A stretch of DNA of 10,396 nucleotides from Candidatus Eiseniibacteriota bacterium (GTDB lineage: Bacteria > JAFGKV01). Both the position numbers and the translations under genes were made by a program. The DNA is taken from NCBI GenBank assembly GCA_025453925.1, contig JALOPK010000089.1, positions 1 through 10,396 of the forward strand. The letters run 5' to 3'. This document shows, piece by piece, positions 1-10,396 of this stretch. How positions within the stretch are numbered: the stretch's first letter is position 1; every line of letters starts with the position of its first letter. The notes beneath the pieces were generated by a model. It saw only the letters and a list, made by a program, of their open reading frames with translations, ran no database searches and was not told the origin of the DNA.

Positions 1-800
1 GCTCTCCCGAGCCCGTCGTCGAGGAGATGGAGTATCTTGTGAAGCGGTTCGGAGTGAGAGAGATCCGGTTTTGGGACGACACGTTCGCAGCCGACAAGGC
101 GCGGGTGCTCCAGATGGCGGAGTTGGTGGCGAAGCGCGGCGTCAAAGTCGATGTGAGTATCGGAACTCGCGCGGACACGCTCGACCAAGAAGTGGTGGCT
201 GCCTTGAAGCAAATCGGCGTATACAACATCATCATCGGTGTCGAGAGCGGTGTGCCAAAGAACCTCGAGACACTCCAGAAGGGTCAGACGCGCGAGCAGG
301 TACGCGAAGCAGTACACCTGGTCCACAAGGCGGGAATCCGGACCTTCCTCACCTCGATCTTCGGCATCCCGGGAGAGACCTACGAGGACGGGCTCGAGAC
401 GATACGGTTCGTGCGCAGTATGAAGCCAGACGCCGCGCACTTCTTCACGCTGTGCCCCTTCCCCGGCACGGAGCTCTACCGCGACCTCCCCAAGTACGGC
501 AAGGTGGTCGAAGGCGACTATTCCTCCCTCGGCATGCACACGCTGCCGTTCGAGCCGTACACAATGACTCGAGACGAGATCGAGAAACTCCGCAGGAAGG
601 CATTCATCACGACTACCCTCTATCCCGAGTTCATCGTGAAGAGGTTGTTGAAGCTCCGATCGCTGGAGGAAGCCAAGATCTTGCTCCGAGGGGGTTCGAC
701 CGTTGCACTGATGACGATGCCTTCATTGATGCAGCGGCTTCGACACGGCAGAACGCGGGCGGTCCAGACCGGCGGGAATGCCGACTGCGGTTCCTGCTGA
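1..800 (+). CDS. B12-binding-type radical SAM protein, C-terminal part (5' end outside window)
   Basis: The reading frame is open from the first bases of the window to TGA at 798-800, so the gene starts upstream; the ATG at 27 is internal. What is visible is the second half of a radical SAM TIM-barrel plus the C-terminal tail. Landmarks are REIRFWDDTF (about 57-86), the GVESG segment (about 237-251), FGIPGETYEDGLETIRF (about 360-410) and PFPGTELY (about 457-480). The same landmarks occur in order in the complete enzyme at 5769-7190, which carries the CxxxCxxC iron-sulfur motif and a B12-binding-like N-terminus. By homology this copy should have had both, but neither is in the window. Known family role: cobalamin/SAM radical chemistry, often methylation or rearrangement of lipids and sugars; the substrate cannot be read here. 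The C-terminus ends in an unusual Cys pair (NADCGSC). The GT-C gene follows after 29 bp, suggesting co-transcription. Confidence 0.93.
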   Translation, partial: SPEPVVEEMEYLVKRFGVREIRFWDDTFAADKARVLQMAELVAKRGVKVDVSIGTRADTLDQEVVAALKQIGVYNIIIGVESGVPKNLETLQKGQTREQVREAVHLVHKAGIRTFLTSIFGIPGETYEDGLETIRFVRSMKPDAAHFFTLCPFPGTELYRDLPKYGKVVEGDYSSLGMHTLPFEPYTMTRDEIEKLRRKAFITTTLYPEFIVKRLLKLRSLEEAKILLRGGSTVALMTMPSLMQRLRHGRTRAVQTGGNADCGSC

Positions 801-829
801 CCTGGCGCCGAGTGACTGACGGCGGGGTG

Positions 830-2857
830 ATGGGCTCGGAGGACACCGAAGCGCTCGGCCCTGCTGCAGGTGGCCAGATGCCGCCGGCTATTTCCCGGGG
901 CCATGTTGGTGCTACCCTGTGGCTGAAGGCCCTATGGCCTCTCGGCGCTATCCTGGCGTACTTCGGGATCGTTATCCTCTTCTGTAACCCTCTGTACGAC
1001 ACGCCGCTCTACGACGATTGGGCCTATGCGGACAATGTACGGCGTTTTCTCGATCGCGGGGAGCTTCGATTCATCTGGACCCAGGTGCCCTTCTTCGGTC
1101 AGTTGCTTGGCGGCGCCCTTTTCGCGAAGCTCTTCGGGTTCTCCTTCGCCACGCTTCATTTGTGGGGGTTGTTCACCGGAGTTGTTGGCGCATTCTCGAT
1201 CTATGCCCTCGGCCGCGCGTACGGACGGTCAAGGAGCACCAGCCTGCTGGTGGCCCTGGCGGTGGTCAGCTCGCCTGCCTACCTCCACTTCTGCTTCACA
1301 TTCATGACCGATGTGCCCGCCACGGCGTTTTTCTTGCTGGCCCTCGTCATCTTTGCCCATGGTGAGCGCGCCGCTGCTAGCACTCCGCGTCGATCCGCCC
1401 TCTGGTACCTGCTCGCCGGCGTGTTGTTGGCCTTCTCCGTGACGGTGCGAGACTTCACGGCGTTCTTCCTGCTTCCGCTGGCGTTTGAGGTCTGGCATGA
1501 TCGGCGCAGCCACCCACGGCGCTTCGCCTTCGCGGCCGCCGTCCTCCTCTCGATCATGAGCTACGGGATCATGATAGGGTTTGTCGAGATGCCGTATCGG
1601 GCGGCGAAACTGTCGCGCAACGTCGTTGGCCATGAGTCACTGCGGTTCTCATACGTCATCATAAGCTATGTCGGGTTGCTGCTCCTTCCTGTCCTCGCCG
1701 CATTCCTACCCGATTTCTTCCGGAAGGAGCTGAAGGGCCGTCCGCGGAGAGCACTTGCCTGGTGGGGCTGCCTGATTCTCATGGTCGGGCTCGCCATCTA
1801 CCAATACTGCTGGACTGTCAAGCACGACCCCACCAGCAAAGATGAGCTCATGCCGTATCCGCCGGGCTTCATCTCAATCCACGGGCCGTACCAAGCCTGC
1901 CCGATCCCAGGGTTCCGCGCGGTCGTCATCCAGTACCCGATGCGAATCGTGCTCACAGCCCTCGGGGCCGGGGGAGGTGCGATTCTCCTCTACACGGCTC
2001 TCGTGCTCGCCCGACAGACCGTGGTGCTGGGGAGGCGAGAGCGGCGGGTACGGCGCATTGCATGGGGCTCGGGCATGCTGCTCGCGGCCGCCGGAGCGGC
2101 GGCGTGGATAGTGCCCCCGCGGCTGAGTCTCAGGCCCTGGCTGGTCGACCAGATCCGCAGTCTGGGGCACGTGCTGCTCATCATCGCCCTCGTCGCCGCA
2201 GCCCTCGTCATCCTGATGCGGCGCAGGCGCCCGGCATCCCCGCAGTACCGCGACATCGGACTTCCTCTTCTCACGGCAGGAAGCATCGCGGTGGGGGTGG
2301 CCGCCTTTGTCTACTACGCCTTCAGCGCCAAGTTCTACATCCGCTACGCTCTTGCCATTGTGCCGGGCGCCCTCTGCGCGACCCTCGCGGTTTTCAGGAG
2401 ATTGCGCCTCAATCGCGCCGTGCTCGTCGCGGTAACGATCGTCTCCACAGTGTTCAGTGTGATCGTGACTCGCGATCAAATCGAGTTCAGCGACGCCCGT
2501 TGGAGGGCGGGACGCTGGCTTCTCTCCGAGGGGGTTCTGCCTGACCAGATCGTGGGTGGCATGGAGTTCGACTACTGGTTCAACCAGTTCAGAGGCCCGC
2601 AGCCGTCGCCGCGGCACGTTCTCATAGGCGATGCCTGGCTGGAGCCTCTCTACCTCTTGACCCTTGACACCTTCCGGGATTCGTGCCGGCCAGTGCGGGG
2701 GCCCGGCAAAGGGGTGCTGTACTGGGGGTGCGAGTATCGAAAAGTCGCCGGTCCGAAGGTCCCGCTCTTCCCCTATCGTTCACTCCTCGGAGGCAGACAG
2801 CGAAGAGTCGAGATATGGCGCCGCCTGGATGCTCCCGTCCCGGGCAGAATCGGGTAA
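830..2857 (+). CDS. Polytopic GT-C (GT39/PMT-like) glycosyltransferase
   Basis: A 675-residue integral membrane protein with roughly 12-14 hydrophobic segments (first near residues 34-52) and a soluble C-terminal part of about 120 residues. GT-C enzymes use polyprenyl-phosphate-linked sugars on the outer face of the membrane. Supporting signs are the acidic motif PLYDDWAY (residues 59-66) in the first external loop just after TM1, and FMTDVPATAFF (D161) at a later loop/TM boundary, both typical of ArnT/PMT-like proteins. The frame is open far upstream, but it overlaps the radical SAM gene there and only becomes protein-like here. ATG 830 has a weak GGCGGGG upstream. ATG 878, preceded by AGGTGG at 868-873, is a good alternative and would drop 16 polar residues. 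The GT2 gene follows after 9 bp. The acceptor and sugar are unknown: it could glycosylate lipid A, a protein, or a growing glycan. Confidence 0.9.
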   Translation: MGSEDTEALGPAAGGQMPPAISRGHVGATLWLKALWPLGAILAYFGIVILFCNPLYDTPLYDDWAYADNVRRFLDRGELRFIWTQVPFFGQLLGGALFAKLFGFSFATLHLWGLFTGVVGAFSIYALGRAYGRSRSTSLLVALAVVSSPAYLHFCFTFMTDVPATAFFLLALVIFAHGERAAASTPRRSALWYLLAGVLLAFSVTVRDFTAFFLLPLAFEVWHDRRSHPRRFAFAAAVLLSIMSYGIMIGFVEMPYRAAKLSRNVVGHESLRFSYVIISYVGLLLLPVLAAFLPDFFRKELKGRPRRALAWWGCLILMVGLAIYQYCWTVKHDPTSKDELMPYPPGFISIHGPYQACPIPGFRAVVIQYPMRIVLTALGAGGGAILLYTALVLARQTVVLGRRERRVRRIAWGSGMLLAAAGAAAWIVPPRLSLRPWLVDQIRSLGHVLLIIALVAAALVILMRRRRPASPQYRDIGLPLLTAGSIAVGVAAFVYYAFSAKFYIRYALAIVPGALCATLAVFRRLRLNRAVLVAVTIVSTVFSVIVTRDQIEFSDARWRAGRWLLSEGVLPDQIVGGMEFDYWFNQFRGPQPSPRHVLIGDAWLEPLYLLTLDTFRDSCRPVRGPGKGVLYWGCEYRKVAGPKVPLFPYRSLLGGRQRRVEIWRRLDAPVPGRIG

Positions 2858-2863
2858 GGGAGG
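2856..2863 (+). promoter_or_regulatory. Ribosome binding site of the GT2 gene
   Basis: The sequence AAGGGAGG overlaps the TAA stop of the GT-C gene (2855-2857) and ends 3 bases before GTG 2867. It fixes the GTG as the start, because the next in-frame ATG (2897) would delete the first beta-strand of the glycosyltransferase fold. The arrangement implies translational coupling between the two genes. Confidence 0.7.
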
Positions 2864-2866
2864 CAC

Positions 2867-3919
2867 GTGCGCTCGTCGGTGACGGCCGTCGTCGCCATGC
2901 GGAACGCCTCGAGAACGATTGCCGCGACGCTCCATTCTTTGCTTGAAGCGCGGCCCGCGATCGAGGAGATCATCTGCGTCGACGACGCCAGTTCCGACTC
3001 ATCCGTCGAGGAAGCAACCCGGCTCATGCGGGAGCGCGGCGCAGCCGTCAGGATTATCCCGTTTGCGTCTCGGCGTGGGCCGGCTGTTGCGCGCAACCGT
3101 GGAGCCGAGGCCGCGCATACTCCTCTGGTGCTTTTCGTAGACAGTGATGTCACGCTTCTGCCGGACACCTTTGCCGTCCTTGCTGAACGGTACGCCGCCC
3201 AAGGGCGCGGCGCCGTAGTCTCCCTCTACTGCGAGAGGAACGCAGCGGGCGGGATACTCTCCGACTTCACGACGTTCTACTCGGCGTTCACTTATCATTC
3301 CGGGCGGGTCGATTCATCCTCTCATCTCAGCAGTCAATGCGTCTTGGTCAACCGCGATGAGTTCCTTCAGGCGGGAGGATTCGATGAACGTTTCCGTCTG
3401 CCCACGGTGGAAGACATCGAGCTAGGGTTGCGGCTTCGCGACCAAGGCATTCCGGTGACGAGAGCCCCTGCCGCCCGGGTAGTCCACAACAGCCGTTACT
3501 CGATCGCGAAGTTCATCCGCAACTACATGCGAAAGGGGTTTGACTTCGGTTGGGTCATGCGGCAGAGGCGCGGCGCCGGGCTGGGGGGCATGGGATACGG
3601 AAGCCTCAATGATATCGCCAGCATCTTGCTGCTGGGCGCGTTGGGGGTTGCGCTGACGCTCCCGGGGAGGCTGCCCGACGGGACATGGATGGTCGCGCTT
3701 ATCGTGCTTCTGTCGTGCTGGTACCGATTCATCCGCACGGCGGCCCGCATGGGGTGGTGCCGGGCCCCGCTCTTCATCGCCTTGCGGGCGAGCGTTCTCA
3801 CGCTCTCCTCAGGCGCGGCCTGTGCCGGGTTTCTCCGAGGGTCCGAGAGCCCCGGGCCCTGGCACGCGTATCGACCCCAGGTTGGGAGCGGCTCCGGTCA
3901 GGAGAGCCCCGCCCCCTAG
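2867..3919 (+). CDS. Family 2 glycosyltransferase (GT-A fold) with C-terminal membrane segments
   Basis: A 350-residue protein starting at GTG behind a good ribosome binding site. The N-terminal GT-A domain (about residues 3-225) shows the nucleotide-binding CVDDASSD (D39, D40), the metal-binding DSD (residues 92-94) within LFVDSDVTLLPD, a GGFDERF acceptor-loop motif, and TVEDIELGLRLRDQG with the catalytic-base-type Glu-Asp at 182-183. A VVHNSRYS segment follows. The QxxRW signature of processive synthases is not visible. About residues 245-325 contain two or three hydrophobic stretches, so the enzyme is probably anchored with its catalytic domain in the cytoplasm. The tail is rich in Pro, Ser and Gly. 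It may transfer a sugar from a nucleotide donor to a polyprenyl phosphate or lipid-linked glycan, feeding the GT-C enzyme encoded just upstream (inference from adjacency). Donor and acceptor are not predictable. Confidence 0.93.
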   Translation: MRSSVTAVVAMRNASRTIAATLHSLLEARPAIEEIICVDDASSDSSVEEATRLMRERGAAVRIIPFASRRGPAVARNRGAEAAHTPLVLFVDSDVTLLPDTFAVLAERYAAQGRGAVVSLYCERNAAGGILSDFTTFYSAFTYHSGRVDSSSHLSSQCVLVNRDEFLQAGGFDERFRLPTVEDIELGLRLRDQGIPVTRAPAARVVHNSRYSIAKFIRNYMRKGFDFGWVMRQRRGAGLGGMGYGSLNDIASILLLGALGVALTLPGRLPDGTWMVALIVLLSCWYRFIRTAARMGWCRAPLFIALRASVLTLSSGAACAGFLRGSESPGPWHAYRPQVGSGSGQESPAP

Positions 3920-3972
3920 TCGCACCAGCTCGCCCCGGTGGAGCGGCTCGTGGCACGGCCCTGCCGGATGCG

Positions 3973-4003
3973 GGATCAGCCGCGATCCATGCAGCACCGC
4001 GGC
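3973..4003. other. Overlapping inverted repeats in the convergent gap
   Basis: The 137-bp gap between the convergent GT2 and FAD-oxidoreductase genes (3920-4056) holds two mutually exclusive perfect stems: GGATC (3973-3977) with GATCC (3984-3988), loop 6, and GCCGCG (3979-3984) with CGCGGC (3998-4003), loop 13. Neither is followed by a T-run on either strand, so they are at best weak, bidirectional transcription-end structures. Nothing else is recognisable in this gap. Confidence 0.3.
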
Positions 4004-4056
4004 CGTATTGCTCGATCTCGGATGGCCCGGCGAGCAGCCCTCCGTGTCGCTTGGGG

Positions 4057-5451
4057 TCATCGGGGGCCGCGACAGCCTTGCCCGCCGAAGAATTCTGTTG
4101 TCTCAAGACGAGTGAGGAGGCTCCGGGCGAGGCCGATGCACCCCGCGATGGTGCGGTCATCCGGCAACAGCATCGTATGATCGAGCGCCCAGAGGCCCTT
4201 CACCCCCGTGTCGAATCCTGGGGTGGATGAAGTGAATCCCACGGGGCAGACCGGTTGTGCGTATTGTTCAGCGAAGAGAGCCTTCCCTGTGATCCATTCT
4301 GGCCGGAAGCGGCTGTTCAGGCGAGCGAAGTGGGGCAGCGCCGCACGAACAATCCCATCGAGATCAAGGGTCGCCAGTTCAGCATCATCCAGGACGCGGT
4401 AATGCGGCAGGTACACCACCGACCTACCCATCGGGTGGTAGTCGGGCGCCAGTGCCGTGAACTCAACGAGGCCGGTCTGCGGGGTGTCTGGGTCCACGAT
4501 GTTGGTCCAGAACCGGCCCGTGAGCGGATGCAGCAGCTCCAACACCACACACACCAGCCCGATGCTTTCCAGGCGTTGCAGCCGTGAGACGTAGTCTCGC
4601 GGAACAGGCCCGTGCAGCAATGAGGGTAGTCTGATGAGGGTGCCTGCGTAGATCACGCGAGACGCGGGGATCTTCTCTCCGCCCGCCACGATGCCCTCCA
4701 CAGCTCCTTCCGGATCGACGTCAACCCGTTCAACGCCTAGGCCGCACCGGATGGTGACACCGGAGGAACTGAGGCGGCGCACCAGCTCGTCAAGGAACAC
4801 CCCGGTCCCTCCGCGGACATACCCGAGCCAATCGTAGAGCAGGAAGCGCCTCGACTGAGCGTTTCTCCTGATCCGCGCCCAGATCCATGCAGCGCAGACG
4901 CGGTCAGAATGAGGACCGAACTTCCGCCGAATCAACTCGGCCCAGAACGCTTCGTAGCCTCTCCGGCCAAGCCACCCATGGAGCCACTGCCGTGCCGTGA
5001 TGTGTTCGAGGTGTCTCCAGTCCCTCATCGCTCGTACGGCAGCGACCAATGCCGCATAGCGAACCTTGCTCAGTAGGTCAACGCCGGGGTAGCGGAGGAG
5101 GTCCACGCCACCGGAGAACCGGATCAGGCGCCCCCGATCGAAGAAGGCCATGTCCGATCGTCGCCACCGCAGCCGGTCGCTCAGGTTGAGGTCACTGAGG
5201 AACGCCACATACTCCCGGTCCGGGGCGCAAAGGAAGTGGTAGAAACGGTCAAGCCTGACCCCGTTCATGGAGAAGGTCCCCGCCATGCCGCCCGGGGTCT
5301 GCTGGGCCTCGTACACGGCAATCTCCCCTCCGGGAATGCCCCGCTGCACCAGTCCGTGGGCGATGGTCAGGCCCGTGACTCCTGCTCCAATGATGGCGAT
5401 GGAGGGAGGATTCCCTCCTCCTCCCGTCAGACCAACGGTGCCGTCGACCAC
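4057..5451 (-). CDS. FAD-dependent amine-oxidase-fold oxidoreductase (protoporphyrinogen oxidase/UGM-like superfamily)
   Basis: A protein of about 464 residues with an N-terminal Rossmann FAD site: IAIIGAGVTGL (GxGxxG at residues 22-27), the acidic residue ending strand beta2 (E48 in VYEAQQTPGG), and the GGMAGTF loop that follows. DRFYHFL, shortly after, resembles the Tyr-His segment of polysaccharide-cluster FAD oxidoreductases. Near the C-terminus GLWALDHTMLLPDDRTIAG resembles the usual PEDRG-type second FAD contact, though divergent. There is no signal peptide or membrane helix, so it is cytoplasmic. The longest frame begins at GTG 5511 directly after a stop and without a ribosome binding site. 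I prefer GTG 5451 because AAAGG/AGGAG precedes it. The gene stands alone on this strand, convergent with the glycosyltransferase operon and divergent from the second radical SAM gene. Family relatives oxidise or isomerise lipids, carotenoids or nucleotide sugars; the substrate here is unknown. Hopanoid HpnE-like function is possible but not shown. Confidence 0.9.
   Translation of the reverse strand: MVDGTVGLTGGGGNPPSIAIIGAGVTGLTIAHGLVQRGIPGGEIAVYEAQQTPGGMAGTFSMNGVRLDRFYHFLCAPDREYVAFLSDLNLSDRLRWRRSDMAFFDRGRLIRFSGGVDLLRYPGVDLLSKVRYAALVAAVRAMRDWRHLEHITARQWLHGWLGRRGYEAFWAELIRRKFGPHSDRVCAAWIWARIRRNAQSRRFLLYDWLGYVRGGTGVFLDELVRRLSSSGVTIRCGLGVERVDVDPEGAVEGIVAGGEKIPASRVIYAGTLIRLPSLLHGPVPRDYVSRLQRLESIGLVCVVLELLHPLTGRFWTNIVDPDTPQTGLVEFTALAPDYHPMGRSVVYLPHYRVLDDAELATLDLDGIVRAALPHFARLNSRFRPEWITGKALFAEQYAQPVCPVGFTSSTPGFDTGVKGLWALDHTMLLPDDRTIAGCIGLARSLLTRLETTEFFGGQGCRGPR
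5401..5418 (-). other. Hairpin and SD-like purine tract at the 5' end of the FAD oxidoreductase gene
   Basis: On the plus strand GGAGGGA (5401-5407) and TCCCTCC (5412-5418) form a perfect 7-bp stem with a 4-base loop. In the minus-strand mRNA this falls around codons 11-17, within a Gly-rich stretch just before the FAD-binding strand, and includes a strong Shine-Dalgarno-like GGAGGAGGAGGG with no ATG, GTG or TTG at a useful distance. It may influence translation of the gene or simply be a by-product of GGA/CCC codons. Confidence 0.35.
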
Positions 5452-5519
5452 CTGCTCCTGCCTTTCCTTGCCTGGCGAGTCACGCCTTGCCGGGGAGATA
5501 CCCGCGAGCACTGTACTTC

Positions 5520-5532
5520 ACGACTGAGTCGT
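5520..5532. promoter_or_regulatory. Perfect 13-bp palindrome, candidate operator
   Basis: ACGACTGAGTCGT is an exact palindrome around a central G (6-bp arms). It lies in the divergent intergenic region, 69 bp upstream of the preferred FAD-oxidoreductase start and about 240 bp upstream of the radical SAM start. The size fits a dimeric repressor or activator half-site pair. No clear sigma70-type promoter could be placed nearby, so the regulatory role is inference only. Confidence 0.35.
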
Positions 5533-5647
5533 CGGCTGCCACGCGGTGCCAACAAGAACCTGACCGGCGACCAACGTTCAAGTGGGCCCCGGCGAGCAGT
5601 GTGAGCATAGGGTGCCGCCATCTCTCGTCAAGGAGTCGAGGGGCAAT

Positions 5648-5683
5648 ACCTGTGGACACGGGAGCACAGGTCTGGCCACAGGT
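5648..5683 (+). promoter_or_regulatory. Nested inverted repeats upstream of the radical SAM gene
   Basis: One left arm, ACCTGTGG (5648-5655), can pair with two different right arms: CACAGGT (5665-5671; 7 bp, loop 10) or CCACAGGT (5676-5683; 8 bp, loop 20). The unit ends about 85 bp before the radical SAM start at 5769, inside what would be its 5' leader. It could be an operator with three half-sites or a small alternative-hairpin leader. No T-run, riboswitch consensus or leader peptide was recognised. The rest of 5452-5768 shows no gene. Confidence 0.35.
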
Positions 5684-5755
5684 GCGGCGAGACCCGCTCC
5701 CGCGTAACATGCACGGCCCGATCATCAACCCCCCCGCCCGGCCGCCAGTGGATGC

Positions 5756-5763
5756 AGAGGGAG
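5756..5763 (+). promoter_or_regulatory. Ribosome binding site of the complete radical SAM gene
   Basis: AGAGGGAG lies 5 bases before ATG 5769. It decides between that ATG and the longer open frame reaching back to 5487, whose translation before 5769 shows no family similarity. Confidence 0.75.
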
Positions 5764-5768
5764 CTCTC

Positions 5769-7190
5769 ATGAAATGCTTGCTCGTCACTCCCTCCTGGAA
5801 GCATGAAGACATCCGTTCGGCCTCCACGCGCGCCGTGTCGGGTGTCTGGCCGATGCCGGGCGTGCTGGCCGTAGGCGCGGCACTCCGCCGCGCAGGACAC
5901 GACGTACGGATCCTCGACGGCCACTTCCACGCGCCCGAGCAGCAGCAGCGGGAGATCGCGGCATGGAAGCCGGATCTCCTGGGCGTGTACAGCGTCACGC
6001 TCATGTGGCATAGGGCCGAAGAGCTGTTCCGCCAGGCGAAGCGTGCGCATCCTGAAGTCTTCACCGTGGCCGGAGGTCCTGCCCCTACCGGCTTCATGTC
6101 GCGCTGCCTCGACGAGCCCGCGCTGGATGCGGTGGTATACGGAGAAGGCGACCTCACGGCTGTCGAGCTGGCAGAACGGGTGGCGTCCGGGACGAGCCTT
6201 ACTGGCGTGCATGGCTGCATCTGGCGTGATGGCGATCGCGTGATCGAGAACCCTCCGCGGGCACCCATCACCGACCTCGACGATCTTCCCTTTCCGGCCC
6301 ACGATCTCGTGGCCCACTACCCCTACCGGCCCTCCTACGGGCAAGTATTACGGCTTCCTGCTCTGCAGATCGTGAGTTCGCGCGGCTGCGGCAACGGCTG
6401 CATCTTCTGCTTCCAGACCATGACCACACGGACCCGTTTTCGGTCCCCCATGAATGTGGTGGATGAGATTGAGCTCTACATGACGCGGTACGGTGCCCGG
6501 GAGATCAAGTTCTGGGATGAGCAGTTCATGCTCGATCGCGGGCGCGTACTGGGCATCTGTGAGGAAATCCTGCGGCGCGACCTCAAAATCGTCTTCTGGT
6601 GCGCGGGCCGCGTGGATACGGTGGACGATGAGCTGCTGCGTATGATGAGACGCGCGGGGTGCTGGTGCATCAGCTACGGGCTGGAAAGCGGTGTTGAGAA
6701 GAACCTCAAGACCCTGCGCAAGAATGCCTCGGTGGAGCAAGGCCGCGAGGCCGTGCTCCGAACCCACCAGGCAGGCATCGAGAGCATGGGCAACTACGTG
6801 TTCGGGATCCCCGGCGAGACCTACGAGGAGGGGCTGGAGACCATCAGGTTCGCATGCAGCATGAACCACTTCTATGTTGAGTTCTTCCCGCTGACGCCCT
6901 TCCCCGGCACGGAGCTGTACGACAACGTGGCGCGGTACGGGAGAATCAACGCACCCCAGGAGCGTCTCGGCATGCTCTTCAAGGCGGCGCCCTTCGTCCC
7001 ACACACCATGAGAGGCGAACAGATAGTCGACCTAGCAGAACGGGGGTACGCTCGCTACTATGCCCGCCCCTCCTTCGTCCTGCGCAGGATCGCGCGGATC
7101 CGGCGCTGGTACGACGTGCAGGTCATGTTCTACGGGGCCCTGTCGATTGCCACCATGGCGTTCTCCCGGCTCCGCCGGGCCGGCAGATAA
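5769..7190 (+). CDS. Cobalamin-binding-domain radical SAM enzyme
   Basis: A complete 473-residue enzyme. Residues 1 to about 140 form a B12-binding-like Rossmann domain: MKCLLVTPSW, then MPGVLAVGAALRRAGHDV, LLGVYSVT and the VAGGPAP turn followed by VVYGEGD, all typical of class B radical SAM methylase-type proteins. The radical SAM core follows, with C207, C211 and C214 in RGCGNGCIFCF (CxxxCxxC), which bind the 4Fe-4S cluster that cleaves SAM. Further core landmarks are REIKFWDEQF, YGLESG, FGIPGETYEEGLETIRF and PFPGTELY. The length matches the family. The C-terminus includes a basic and then mildly hydrophobic segment, shared with the paralogue at 1-800. The start is set by the ribosome binding site at 5756-5763. 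It is transcribed alone, divergent from the FAD oxidoreductase. The architecture resembles hopanoid HpnJ and many enzymes of lipid or natural-product loci, but the reaction cannot be assigned. Confidence 0.94.
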   Translation: MKCLLVTPSWKHEDIRSASTRAVSGVWPMPGVLAVGAALRRAGHDVRILDGHFHAPEQQQREIAAWKPDLLGVYSVTLMWHRAEELFRQAKRAHPEVFTVAGGPAPTGFMSRCLDEPALDAVVYGEGDLTAVELAERVASGTSLTGVHGCIWRDGDRVIENPPRAPITDLDDLPFPAHDLVAHYPYRPSYGQVLRLPALQIVSSRGCGNGCIFCFQTMTTRTRFRSPMNVVDEIELYMTRYGAREIKFWDEQFMLDRGRVLGICEEILRRDLKIVFWCAGRVDTVDDELLRMMRRAGCWCISYGLESGVEKNLKTLRKNASVEQGREAVLRTHQAGIESMGNYVFGIPGETYEEGLETIRFACSMNHFYVEFFPLTPFPGTELYDNVARYGRINAPQERLGMLFKAAPFVPHTMRGEQIVDLAERGYARYYARPSFVLRRIARIRRWYDVQVMFYGALSIATMAFSRLRRAGR

Positions 7191-7285: not shown

Positions 7286-8977
7286 CTATCGCACGCTCGC
7301 CGCCAGCACCCGGAGGGTGTGGTCCAGCAGGTCCTGCGTGAAACGGTTGCCGTGGCCGGGCACGACGTGGACGGCCGGAAGTTCACGCAGCCGCTCGACC
7401 GCTGCAGGCCAGGCTGCCAGGTCGGCATCGGCGGTGTTGCCCACCCGGTCACCACAGAGGAGCATGCACCCGCCGAACAGCACACGCCGCCGGGGAAGGT
7501 AGACCACGGAGTTGTCCAACGAATGGGCGGGACCCGGGTGGATCACTTTCACCGTATCCCCATGCACCAGAGTGAGCCCCTGGTCTACCGGAAAGACATG
7601 GTCGGGGGGGACAAGTCGCAGGCTCTCAAACCAGTCTTTCTCGGGCCGCTGTCCCAGCCAGCCCACCACCTGGGTCCGCATGGCGTCTTCGCGCTCGGCC
7701 AGCATGCGGACGGAGAGATCCGAACCATAGATGGGGACGCCGGCCTCCTGAAGCGCCTCGTTGCCGCCCATGGCGTCGTAGTGGAAGTGAGTATTCACCG
7801 CGATCATCGGGCGGCGCCCGAAGCGAGCCGTGAGCCATTGCAGCATCGAGCGGGTCGCGGCCGGGGTGTAGGGAGTGTCGACAAGAAGCAGGGTCGAGTC
7901 GGCTAGTTCGGCCACCAGGGAGTTGGCCGGCCAGGGCTTTTCGTGGGTGACGACCCAGATGCCTTCAGACAGCGTGCGAACTCGCATGTCGTGATCTATC
8001 CAGCAGGAGTCCGGATCGGGCCGGCTGCCGAATCGCTGACCGAAGGCGTCGACCTGGGCATTGTCCCATGACCATGCGCCCTCCAGGAACGGGGCGACGC
8101 GGTAGAGCCACGAAAGGCCGATGAGGCCGGCATAGCCGTCCGGAAGCGCGTACACCGAGTCCGACAGGGCATCCGCCAGAGGAACGAATGTGACGCCCCG
8201 GCCTTCCAGGGCCGTCAGGAGGGTGTCAAGGTAGTCTGCGGCCAGGGCATTGGCGTGGAGCAGGAGCACATGCGGGATATCGCGCCCGAACCGGGCCCGG
8301 GCGACCTCGCGGTAGTGTTCGACGGCACCCAGGAGGTGGTCGACGTAGGCATCACCGACTATGCGAGCCCCCGCGGCGTCACCCGCGCGCCACGCGTCCA
8401 CGTACGGCTTCACCAGCGCCCATTCGCCGGTATCCACGGACACCTGCGCGACCGAATGACCGCACGATCGCACGATGGCTACGGCGGAGTCCCGCAGCCC
8501 GACCGTTGCGCCCATCTGGAGGAAGGGGTAGCGGAACCACCGGGGGCGCGTTCCGGTGAACCGGGTCAGCGTCTCGGTGCACTCGAGCACCTCCTCCGCC
8601 CAGTCGCCAAGCGGCATCTCATCGAGGTGGGGATGCGTACAGGAGTGGTTCCCCAGCTCCATCCCAGCCTCCATCCACTGGCGCAGGATGGCCTCTTGCC
8701 CCGGTATCCGGTCGCACACCACGAACCCCGTTGCCGGCACATGGTGCTTCTCCAGCGCGGCGAGGATGCGCCCCGTCGCCTCCATCCGGGAATCACCTGG
8801 CCGCACTGCGTTGACGAAGGGGAGATCATCAATGGTGACGGCGATCTGAGGGCCAACGCTCGCAGCAGAGGCTCGCGCCAGCGCCAGGCCCACGCTGAAC
8901 GCGCTCCACAGGAGTCTCCACGAGTCACGGGCATGCACACGATGCGACTGAACGGTCGTCAGTGTCGAGAGGAGCAT
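7286..8977 (-). CDS. Exported polysaccharide deacetylase (NodB) fused to a subclass B1-like metallo-beta-lactamase-fold domain
   Basis: A 563-residue protein from ATG 8977, with GAGG at a 9-base spacing. Residues 1-38 look like a signal peptide (hydrophobic core LLWSAFSVGLALA, cleavage near ASA-A), so it is probably periplasmic. Residues 44-290 are a NodB deacetylase: TIDDLPF (D50, D51), the zinc motif NHSCTHPHL (H111, H115), RYPF (149-152), DTGEW (182-186) and LLLH (H241). Residues 331-563 are a metallo-beta-lactamase fold with all six B1-type ligands: THFHYD (H397, H399, D401), AHSLDN (H485), LFGGC (C504) and VPGHG (H542); GNTADADLAAWP also matches B1 enzymes. The usual Lys of GGCxxK is Leu (L507), while R511 sits where VIM enzymes have Arg228. 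Alternative starts are ATG 8986 and ATG 9037, the latter overlapping the upstream stop. Deacetylation of wall glycan plus hydrolysis of a second substrate is inferred; beta-lactamase activity is unproven. Confidence 0.93.
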   Translation of the reverse strand: MLLSTLTTVQSHRVHARDSWRLLWSAFSVGLALARASAASVGPQIAVTIDDLPFVNAVRPGDSRMEATGRILAALEKHHVPATGFVVCDRIPGQEAILRQWMEAGMELGNHSCTHPHLDEMPLGDWAEEVLECTETLTRFTGTRPRWFRYPFLQMGATVGLRDSAVAIVRSCGHSVAQVSVDTGEWALVKPYVDAWRAGDAAGARIVGDAYVDHLLGAVEHYREVARARFGRDIPHVLLLHANALAADYLDTLLTALEGRGVTFVPLADALSDSVYALPDGYAGLIGLSWLYRVAPFLEGAWSWDNAQVDAFGQRFGSRPDPDSCWIDHDMRVRTLSEGIWVVTHEKPWPANSLVAELADSTLLLVDTPYTPAATRSMLQWLTARFGRRPMIAVNTHFHYDAMGGNEALQEAGVPIYGSDLSVRMLAEREDAMRTQVVGWLGQRPEKDWFESLRLVPPDHVFPVDQGLTLVHGDTVKVIHPGPAHSLDNSVVYLPRRRVLFGGCMLLCGDRVGNTADADLAAWPAAVERLRELPAVHVVPGHGNRFTQDLLDHTLRVLAASVR

Positions 8978-9036: not shown

Positions 9037-10396
9037 TCAATGAGGTTCGGTCGGCATTTCCACCACTACTCTATTGCGGCCCGCGTTCTTTGCCTGGTAC
9101 ATGGCCTCGTCGGCTCTCGTCAGAAGCTGTTCCAAGTCATCCGCTGTCTCCCGCAGGGAGGCTACTCCGACGCTCACGGTGAACGCGGCCGGTCGTGGGC
9201 TGCCCTCGATGGCAATGCGGGTGAGCTCTGATCGAATGCGTTCGGCCACCTGTGCGGCCCGCGGCAAGTCAGCACCGGGGAGCAGCACCGCGAATTCATC
9301 CCCGCCCAGACGCCCGATCAGATCGTTGCACCGAATCAACTGGCGGAGGCTGGCAACCATCGCCTTCAGGGTAGCGTCACCCACCGGGTGGCCATACGTG
9401 TCATTGATGTGCTTGAAATGATCGATGTCCACCATGAGCATGCACAGCGGAACGCCTTCCTTGCGGAACCTGGCGACCTCCTGTGCCGCTGCCTCCATGA
9501 AGTGGCGCCGGTTGGCGACACCAGTGAGCGAGTCCGTGGACGCCAGCACGGCCAGCTCCCGCGTCCGCATATCCACCTCACGCCTGAGCTGGTCTCGCTG
9601 CTTCCTGATGGTGCGAATCCGCAGGTAGGACAATCCCAGCATGCCGCCCACGCCAACCGCGCTCACCAGGACCCTGAACCACCATCGCTCAAGGAGCGTC
9701 GGACTGATGTCAAACCCAAGCCGCGCTTCGTGGTTGCCCTCGTGACGAGAGCCACGGCAGCGAACCCTGAGCGTGAAATGGCCCGAGGGTAGCCGTGTAT
9801 ATGAGGCCGCCGGCACGGTGCCGGTGTCCCGCCATCTGCGATCGTAGCCCTCCAGCAGAGTGGAATAGCGCACCTGTGATGGGTTTCGATAGTCAATACC
9901 CACGAAACCGAAGGTCACGTCTCTGGATTCCGCGTCCAGATGAACTGTCTCGCCGCTGGGCCACCCTGCCGGTGCCCAGATGCGCGCGGCATCGGAGGAA
10001 ACGGTCGTGATCAGTATGGGGATATCATCGTCCGGGCGCCCGACCGCATCGGGGTGAAACATCGCCACGCCATTCATGGTGCCGAAGAACAGGCGACCGT
10101 CCCGAGCGGACGTGCCCGCCCCCTGGTTGAACTCCCGGCTGGGAAGGCCGTCACCCACCCCGTAGACGGTCATATGGTGGGAGGACGGATCGAAGCGAAC
10201 CAGACCATCTGTGGTGCCCAGCCAAAGGATCCCGTGATCGTCTTCAAGGCACGAGAAGACCGTCGGACTGGGGAGGCCATCGGCAACGGTGAAGGCGCGG
10301 AAACGATCGGTCTGCGCATCGAAGTGTGCCAGACCGCCGCTCGTGCCGACCCAGAGACCGGATCGCTCGCAGCGGAGGAGACACAAGATCTCTGGA
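9037..10396 (-). CDS. Beta-propeller sensor diguanylate cyclase (Reg_prop / Y_Y_Y / TM / GGDEF), N-terminus outside window
   Basis: The frame is open to the right edge, so the start is missing; 452 residues are visible. The N-terminal part carries two-component-regulator propeller repeats (LWVGTSGGLAHFD, LWLGTTDGLVRFD, LFFGTMNGVAMF), then a Y_Y_Y-type domain (YSTLLEGYDRRWRDTG, YTRLPSGHFTLRVR). One membrane helix (WWFRVLVSAVGVGGMLGLSYL) and a short coiled coil (RKQRDQLRREVDMRTREL) follow, then a GGDEF domain starting DSLTGVANRRHF. DIDHFKHINDTYGH and RLGGDEF (codons 9292-9306) are intact, so it should make c-di-GMP. RCND (9322-9333), five residues before GGDEF, fits the RxxD inhibitory site, implying product inhibition. 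The sensor part is periplasmic and the cyclase cytoplasmic. Its TGA overlaps by one base an ATG (9037) in frame with the deacetylase gene, so the two genes are probably an operon. The ligand is unknown. Confidence 0.94.
   Translation of the reverse strand, partial: PEILCLLRCERSGLWVGTSGGLAHFDAQTDRFRAFTVADGLPSPTVFSCLEDDHGILWLGTTDGLVRFDPSSHHMTVYGVGDGLPSREFNQGAGTSARDGRLFFGTMNGVAMFHPDAVGRPDDDIPILITTVSSDAARIWAPAGWPSGETVHLDAESRDVTFGFVGIDYRNPSQVRYSTLLEGYDRRWRDTGTVPAASYTRLPSGHFTLRVRCRGSRHEGNHEARLGFDISPTLLERWWFRVLVSAVGVGGMLGLSYLRIRTIRKQRDQLRREVDMRTRELAVLASTDSLTGVANRRHFMEAAAQEVARFRKEGVPLCMLMVDIDHFKHINDTYGHPVGDATLKAMVASLRQLIRCNDLIGRLGGDEFAVLLPGADLPRAAQVAERIRSELTRIAIEGSPRPAAFTVSVGVASLRETADDLEQLLTRADEAMYQAKNAGRNRVVVEMPTEPH

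Follow-up and report, generated by a model that had tools for sequence, protein, structure and literature searches.

Among the subclass B1 metallo-beta-lactamases (MBLs), SPM-1 and SPS-1 belong to a set named B1-5 by Berglund and co-workers, which at four families is the smallest of the groups (PMC5637372). Upon expression in E. coli, SPS-1 was confirmed to hydrolyse imipenem, although its His116 is replaced by glycine (PMC5637372), and PAN-1 and SPM-1, members of the same insert-bearing group, are equally beta-lactamases, with an extended alpha3 insert being the peculiarity shared by SPM-1, PAN-1 and SPS-1 (PMC6663966). Environmental fusions that include a beta-lactamase domain are represented by the LRA-13-type class C-class D bifunctional enzymes, both domains of which are serine beta-lactamases (PMC5967600). 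With respect to NodB deacetylases, L. pneumophila PdaA is reported to belong to a large, uncharacterised branch of CE4 (PMC12239567).

The window analysed here, which is the whole 10,396-nucleotide stretch of contig JALOPK010000089.1 from a Candidatus Eiseniibacteriota bacterium, carries a gene in which a NodB domain with a signal peptide is followed by a B1-type MBL domain (Table 1), a conserved pairing of known families that is apparently undescribed; a partial literature search found no published description of deacetylase/MBL fusions. Unlike this protein, the LRA-13-type enzymes contain neither a deacetylase nor an MBL. The reading that we favour, at a rough probability of 0.55 as judged from the sequence, is an exported bifunctional enzyme which combines a B1-type beta-lactamase of the SPS-1/SPM-1 group with an envelope-glycan deacetylase in one chain. 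The protein would be secreted across the inner membrane, the C-terminal di-zinc domain would open beta-lactam rings outside the cytoplasm and the metal-dependent N-terminal NodB domain would deacetylate an envelope glycan, be it peptidoglycan or a surface polysaccharide. One polypeptide would then bring beta-lactam destruction to the wall and edit the wall glycan, and the two domains may cooperate.

Table 1. Coordinates of the fusion gene, its parts and its neighbours in the window, and of the BlaI-associated loci in other genomes
Feature	Position	Strand	Remarks
NodB-MBL fusion gene	7286..8977	minus	563 aa; stop TAG 7288-7286; counterpart in sister locus L034
Sec-type signal peptide	8864..8977	minus	h-region LLWSAFSVGLAL, AxA-type site ASA/A; hydropathy peak; equivalent leader in sister
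Complete NodB/CE4 domain with subfamily C-terminal tail	8003..8851	minus	TIDD, HSCTH, RYPFLQMG, VDTGEW, LLLHAN intact
B1-type MBL domain, SPS-1/SPM-1-like, with alpha3 insert	7289..8002	minus	HFHYD, AHSLDN, FGGC, GN, PGHG
Reg_prop/Y_Y_Y sensor with GGDEF diguanylate cyclase	9037..10395	minus	upstream, co-directional; open at window edge
B12-binding radical SAM gene	5769..7190	plus	convergent, downstream; conserved neighbour in sister
GT2 glycosyltransferase	2867..3919	plus	in glycan-type block; PMT-like gene before it
BlaI + M56-NodB locus L157	5034-8469	minus	NodB domain with all key motifs lost
BlaI + M56-NodB locus L156	3301-5717	plus	NodB domain with all key motifs lost

The minus-strand frame from 9040 to 7286 has no internal stop, and ATG 8977, with a GAGG ribosome-binding site upstream at a spacer of 9 nt, is the likely start, giving the 563-residue protein. 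The sequence comes from a 3.9-Mb MAG split into 502 contigs, which made an independent copy of the fusion important. Such a copy is present in 'Candidatus Fermentibacteria bacterium isolate Zod_Metabat.355' (G001), a sister genome of the same genus, where the start of contig JAFGKV010000108 encodes fusion residues 142-582 (584-residue numbering) in one frame at 80% identity, while an N-terminal piece, residues 28-136 at 64% identity and with a leader ending in AVA/G, ends a separate contig. The NodB/MBL junction falls within the uninterrupted piece, and the same one-frame join in a second genome rules out the assembly artefact that the preliminary description had allowed for. Between the two species, dN/dS amounts to 0.13/0.84 for NodB, 0.16/0.88 for the MBL and 0.08/2.2 for the linker of only 41 codons; although dS near and above 1 gives rough values, NodB, MBL and the join between them are all under purifying selection.

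The fusion appears to be narrowly distributed within the collections searched. In a comparison of the fusion protein with about 1,290 genomes, only the sister genome joins NodB and MBL in one protein, and a scan of an 84,980-species genome set, which reaches close relatives only, returned the sister alone. A third genome of the phylum, from another genus, gave no match to the fusion protein. The fusion was found neither in plasmids, with the fusion protein as query, nor in phages, with the NodB part as query, nor in IMG/VR by single-protein and profile-guided scans. Long frames in G650 and G731 that looked like MBL 'fusions' (L161, L162) were discarded as high G+C artefacts, the match beginning at the MBL's own N-terminus behind a domain-free upstream frame, and NodB frames of 450-512 residues in the phylum of G298 were judged to be spurious N-terminal extensions.

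Both domains lie above the Pfam gathering cut-offs (PF01522, E=1.6e-20, 73.8 bits vs a cut-off of 23.1; PF00753, E=3.4e-15). In the NodB domain the catalytic Asp, the Asp-His-His metal triad, the RxP motif and the late His motif are all kept, and residues D50, D51, H111, H115, R149, D182 and H241 are invariant or nearly so in the subfamily. The subfamily's C-terminal tail is retained as well (residues about 285-325), and the MBL starts directly after it and lacks a separate leader; the protein thus has the look of a full-length deacetylase to which a mature MBL was joined, and its origin would be an end-to-end fusion of an exported deacetylase with an MBL shorn of its own signal peptide. The uncharacterised gram-negative CE4 branch that includes Legionella plasmid NodB proteins shares all NodB motifs and secretion, at 30-41% identity to the branch members found. 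L. pneumophila PdaA, likened here by description and not by sequence, differs from the fusion in having no MBL domain (PMC12239567).

Alignment with VIM-2, NDM-1, IMP-6, SPM-1 and SPS-1 assigns H397, H399, D401, H485, C504 and H542 of the MBL domain (563-residue numbering) to the six B1 zinc ligands His116, His118, Asp120, His196, Cys221 and His263. A signal peptide, a NodB domain with every catalytic motif and a B1-type MBL domain with all six ligands in one exported chain, as the preliminary description had put it, are hence real and conserved according to Pfam, motifs, the five aligned B1 enzymes and the sister genome. Among class B profiles, against which the description proposed to place the domain, B1 fits best: the NCBIfam B1 model NF033088 matches at E=1e-45 and 156 bits over 213 of 217 positions (159.5 bits for the MBL domain alone), the B2 profile reaches only 76 bits, and no B3 model is among the best 25 NCBIfam profile matches of the fusion. 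The B1 score stays below the curated cut-off of 200 bits, which is a naming threshold, not a biochemical definition. The best PDB match is SPS-1 (6cqs, E=8.9e-61), and the matches to the B1 model and to SPS-1 are far beyond chance. The alignment further shows an extended alpha3 insert of roughly 21 residues and a retained Asn233, and Lys224 is replaced by Leu. Position 224 varies, being Tyr in VIM-2, Arg in SPS-1 and Lys in SPM-1; with Leu, carboxylate binding would need another residue. A structure prediction of the full protein from two sequences gave a mean pLDDT of 35, and no evidence was drawn from the model.

The MBL domain is 41% identical to SPS-1, 40% to a standalone enzyme of G268, 35% to VIM-2, 33% to SPM-1 and 26% each to NDM-1 and a BcII-like enzyme; with its identity to SPS-1 and SPM-1 and the alpha3 insert in common, it appears to belong with these two. 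SPS-1 of Sediminispirochaeta smaragdinae also has the short Cys221-Asn233 loop, but is a standalone protein of 263 residues with Gly at position 116 and Arg at position 224, whereas the fusion keeps His116, has Leu224 and is preceded by NodB. SPM-1 and PAN-1 carry the insert and all six ligands as in the fusion, but are standalone. The tree, which holds no B2 or B3 rows, supports at 99/98 a set made up of four environmental enzymes together with VIM-2, NDM-1, IMP-6 and the BcII-like row. This set includes a second, standalone B1-type MBL of the window's own genome (L095, contig C244, 2595-3479, minus strand, 292 residues) and is joined by the G268 enzyme at 87/88. Outside this set, the fusion's MBL stands together with SPS-1, SPM-1, L091 and L109, the last a long-branch row; a 96/98 branch puts them on the B1 side, apart from generic MBL-fold rows, the deep forks not being settled. 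A constraint that places the fusion MBL, its sister, SPS-1, SPM-1 and L090 in one clade is not rejected (p-AU 0.113), nor does the analysis demonstrate such a clade. Of the earlier proposals, the B1-type assignment consequently stands on profiles and ligands, and the affinity to acquired VIM-type enzymes does not. The GNTADADLAAWP stretch, taken as typical of acquired B1 enzymes such as VIM, occurs across B1 and is no sign of a VIM-like domain. An environmental B1 lineage is likewise upheld, but with the tree's backbone not settled there is no basis for the label 'ancestor-like'.

The NodB subfamily itself is widespread and promiscuous. The fusion query matched 80 of the 132 genomes in the phylum of G298 and 85 of the 297 in that of G085, nearly always through the NodB part, and the subfamily is found fused to SnoaL/DUF4440, GT2, alpha/beta hydrolase and M56 partners. 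A C-terminal SnoaL/DUF4440-like domain is present in L148, L151, L153, L154, L158, L160, L184 and L101, which form one supported clade where they are in the tree. In two GT2-NodB proteins (L198, 2149-5157; L199, 35-3046) a membrane GT2-like glycosyltransferase, assigned from sequence reading and not by profile search, precedes a C-terminal NodB of the same subfamily, which puts synthase and deacetylase in one chain.

A number of subfamily members adjoin beta-lactam resistance genes. On Legionella plasmids (L035, 771-6481; L080, 2707-8406) the order is BlaI, M56/BlaR1, a class D beta-lactamase (OXA-29 or another), a NodB-alpha/beta hydrolase gene a few bases after it, and an alpha/beta hydrolase. 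The Legionella protein thus has the same NodB subfamily with a C-terminal hydrolase next to a beta-lactamase, but there the beta-lactamase, of class D, has its own gene and the fused hydrolase has an alpha/beta fold. On Klebsiella plasmids (L081, 5109-6855; L087, L088) a NodB gene follows blaOXA-926 by about 14 nt and is annotated as overlapping in one record; the text of the OXA-926 paper does not mention a deacetylase. In the BlaZ-BlaI-BlaR1 system the sensor of BlaR1 resembles a class D beta-lactamase. In G563 and G575, the BlaI gene overlaps with that of a BlaR1-like M56 protein which carries a C-terminal NodB domain in place of BlaR1's beta-lactam sensor, with the NodB motifs destroyed (GFVALP, SYSH, SYP, LLT), and in G563 (L157) an intact NodB gene adjoins the pair. 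By analogy, the dead NodB domain is a putative sensor, and the locus resembles a circuit of the BlaZ-BlaI-BlaR1 type in which a deacetylase has taken the central place. No beta-lactamase neighbour was seen at about 70 other NodB loci examined with the seeds used, and as separate lineages have one, the link is a repeated but minority pattern.

Several alternatives to the bifunctional enzyme have to be weighed. The MBL domain may retain the B1 fold and zinc site but, instead of a beta-lactam, hydrolyse an ester, lactone or amide derived from the wall or a glycan, in sequence with NodB. The replacement of Lys224 and the profile score below threshold leave room for such a substrate, as do the fusion to a glycan deacetylase and the adjoining glycan-type genes. 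On the other hand, position 224 differs among active B1 enzymes too, the domain retains the alpha3 insert, Asn233 and every one of the six ligands, and its nearest relatives (SPS-1, SPM-1, PAN-1) are all beta-lactamases (PMC5637372, PMC6663966); we consider this substrate change unlikely. A true beta-lactamase is favoured because SPS-1, the nearest characterised relative, hydrolysed imipenem (PMC5637372), and as it does so without His116 while the fusion keeps every ligand, the domain is probably an environmental beta-lactamase and predicted to be active. Two unrelated exported hydrolases might also have no more in common than the leader and not cooperate in function, for which the many partners of the NodB subfamily would speak; this reading is very unlikely, since the linker, albeit only 41 codons long, is the most constrained segment and the fusion is kept in two species at a dS of about 0.85.

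The NodB subfamily could, alternatively, act in the response to beta-lactams or wall damage, processing muropeptides or glycan strands which accumulate under beta-lactams or deacylating beta-lactams or their products, with the fusion as the most compact module. The adjacency to OXA-29 and OXA-926 in separate lineages and the BlaR1-like receptor with a dead NodB beside BlaI and an intact NodB are consistent with such a role. Yet OXA-linked NodBs were sought in trees as sisters of the window NodB and not found; the beta-lactam-linked lineages do not group with it in one clade, most homologues have no such neighbours, and BlaI/M56 pairs also occur in non-beta-lactam settings, so that this role is decidedly unlikely. 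In a more general form, the NodB branch would be a recurrent partner of beta-lactam resistance, following OXA genes, serving on a BlaR1-like sensor and fused to a B1 enzyme in Fermentibacterota. It would process the wall fragments, or the drug, present under beta-lactam attack, so that the same exported protein destroys the drug and deals with the signal of damage; this proposal is rather unlikely. In favour of the bifunctional enzyme stand, besides motifs, profile scores and purifying selection, the beta-lactamase links of the NodB subfamily in other lineages and the glycan context, with GT2, PMT-like and B12-radical-SAM neighbours here and GT2-NodB proteins elsewhere. The occurrence of NodB and MBL in one exported protein of two species suggests that a single package can hold both the editing of the wall and the destruction of beta-lactams.

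Should both domains prove active, the protein would unite in a single chain a carbapenemase-type domain and a deacetylase for the wall or a glycan. Its MBL widens the sparse SPM/SPS branch of B1, the source branch of acquired SPM-1. The main interest of the fusion is its fit with a wider, putative tie between the NodB branch and beta-lactam systems: it makes testable whether an uncharacterised NodB branch acts in beta-lactam responses, as the OXA and BlaI/BlaR1 links suggest.

No BlaI/BlaR1 (M56) genes are located beside the fusion gene within the window. The upstream neighbour is not conserved, being the GGDEF gene in the window and leuCD in the sister. The block at 27-7190 of the window comprises radical-SAM, PMT-like, GT2 glycosyltransferase and amine-oxidase-fold genes, with similar genes next to the sister fusion, and its gene content hints at a locus for a surface glycan or a lipid. 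Elsewhere in the window's own genome, contig C283 carries a degraded fragment (L003, 1243-1692, minus strand) that resembles the window MBL at 71% over 35 residues and lies by a transposase-like frame.
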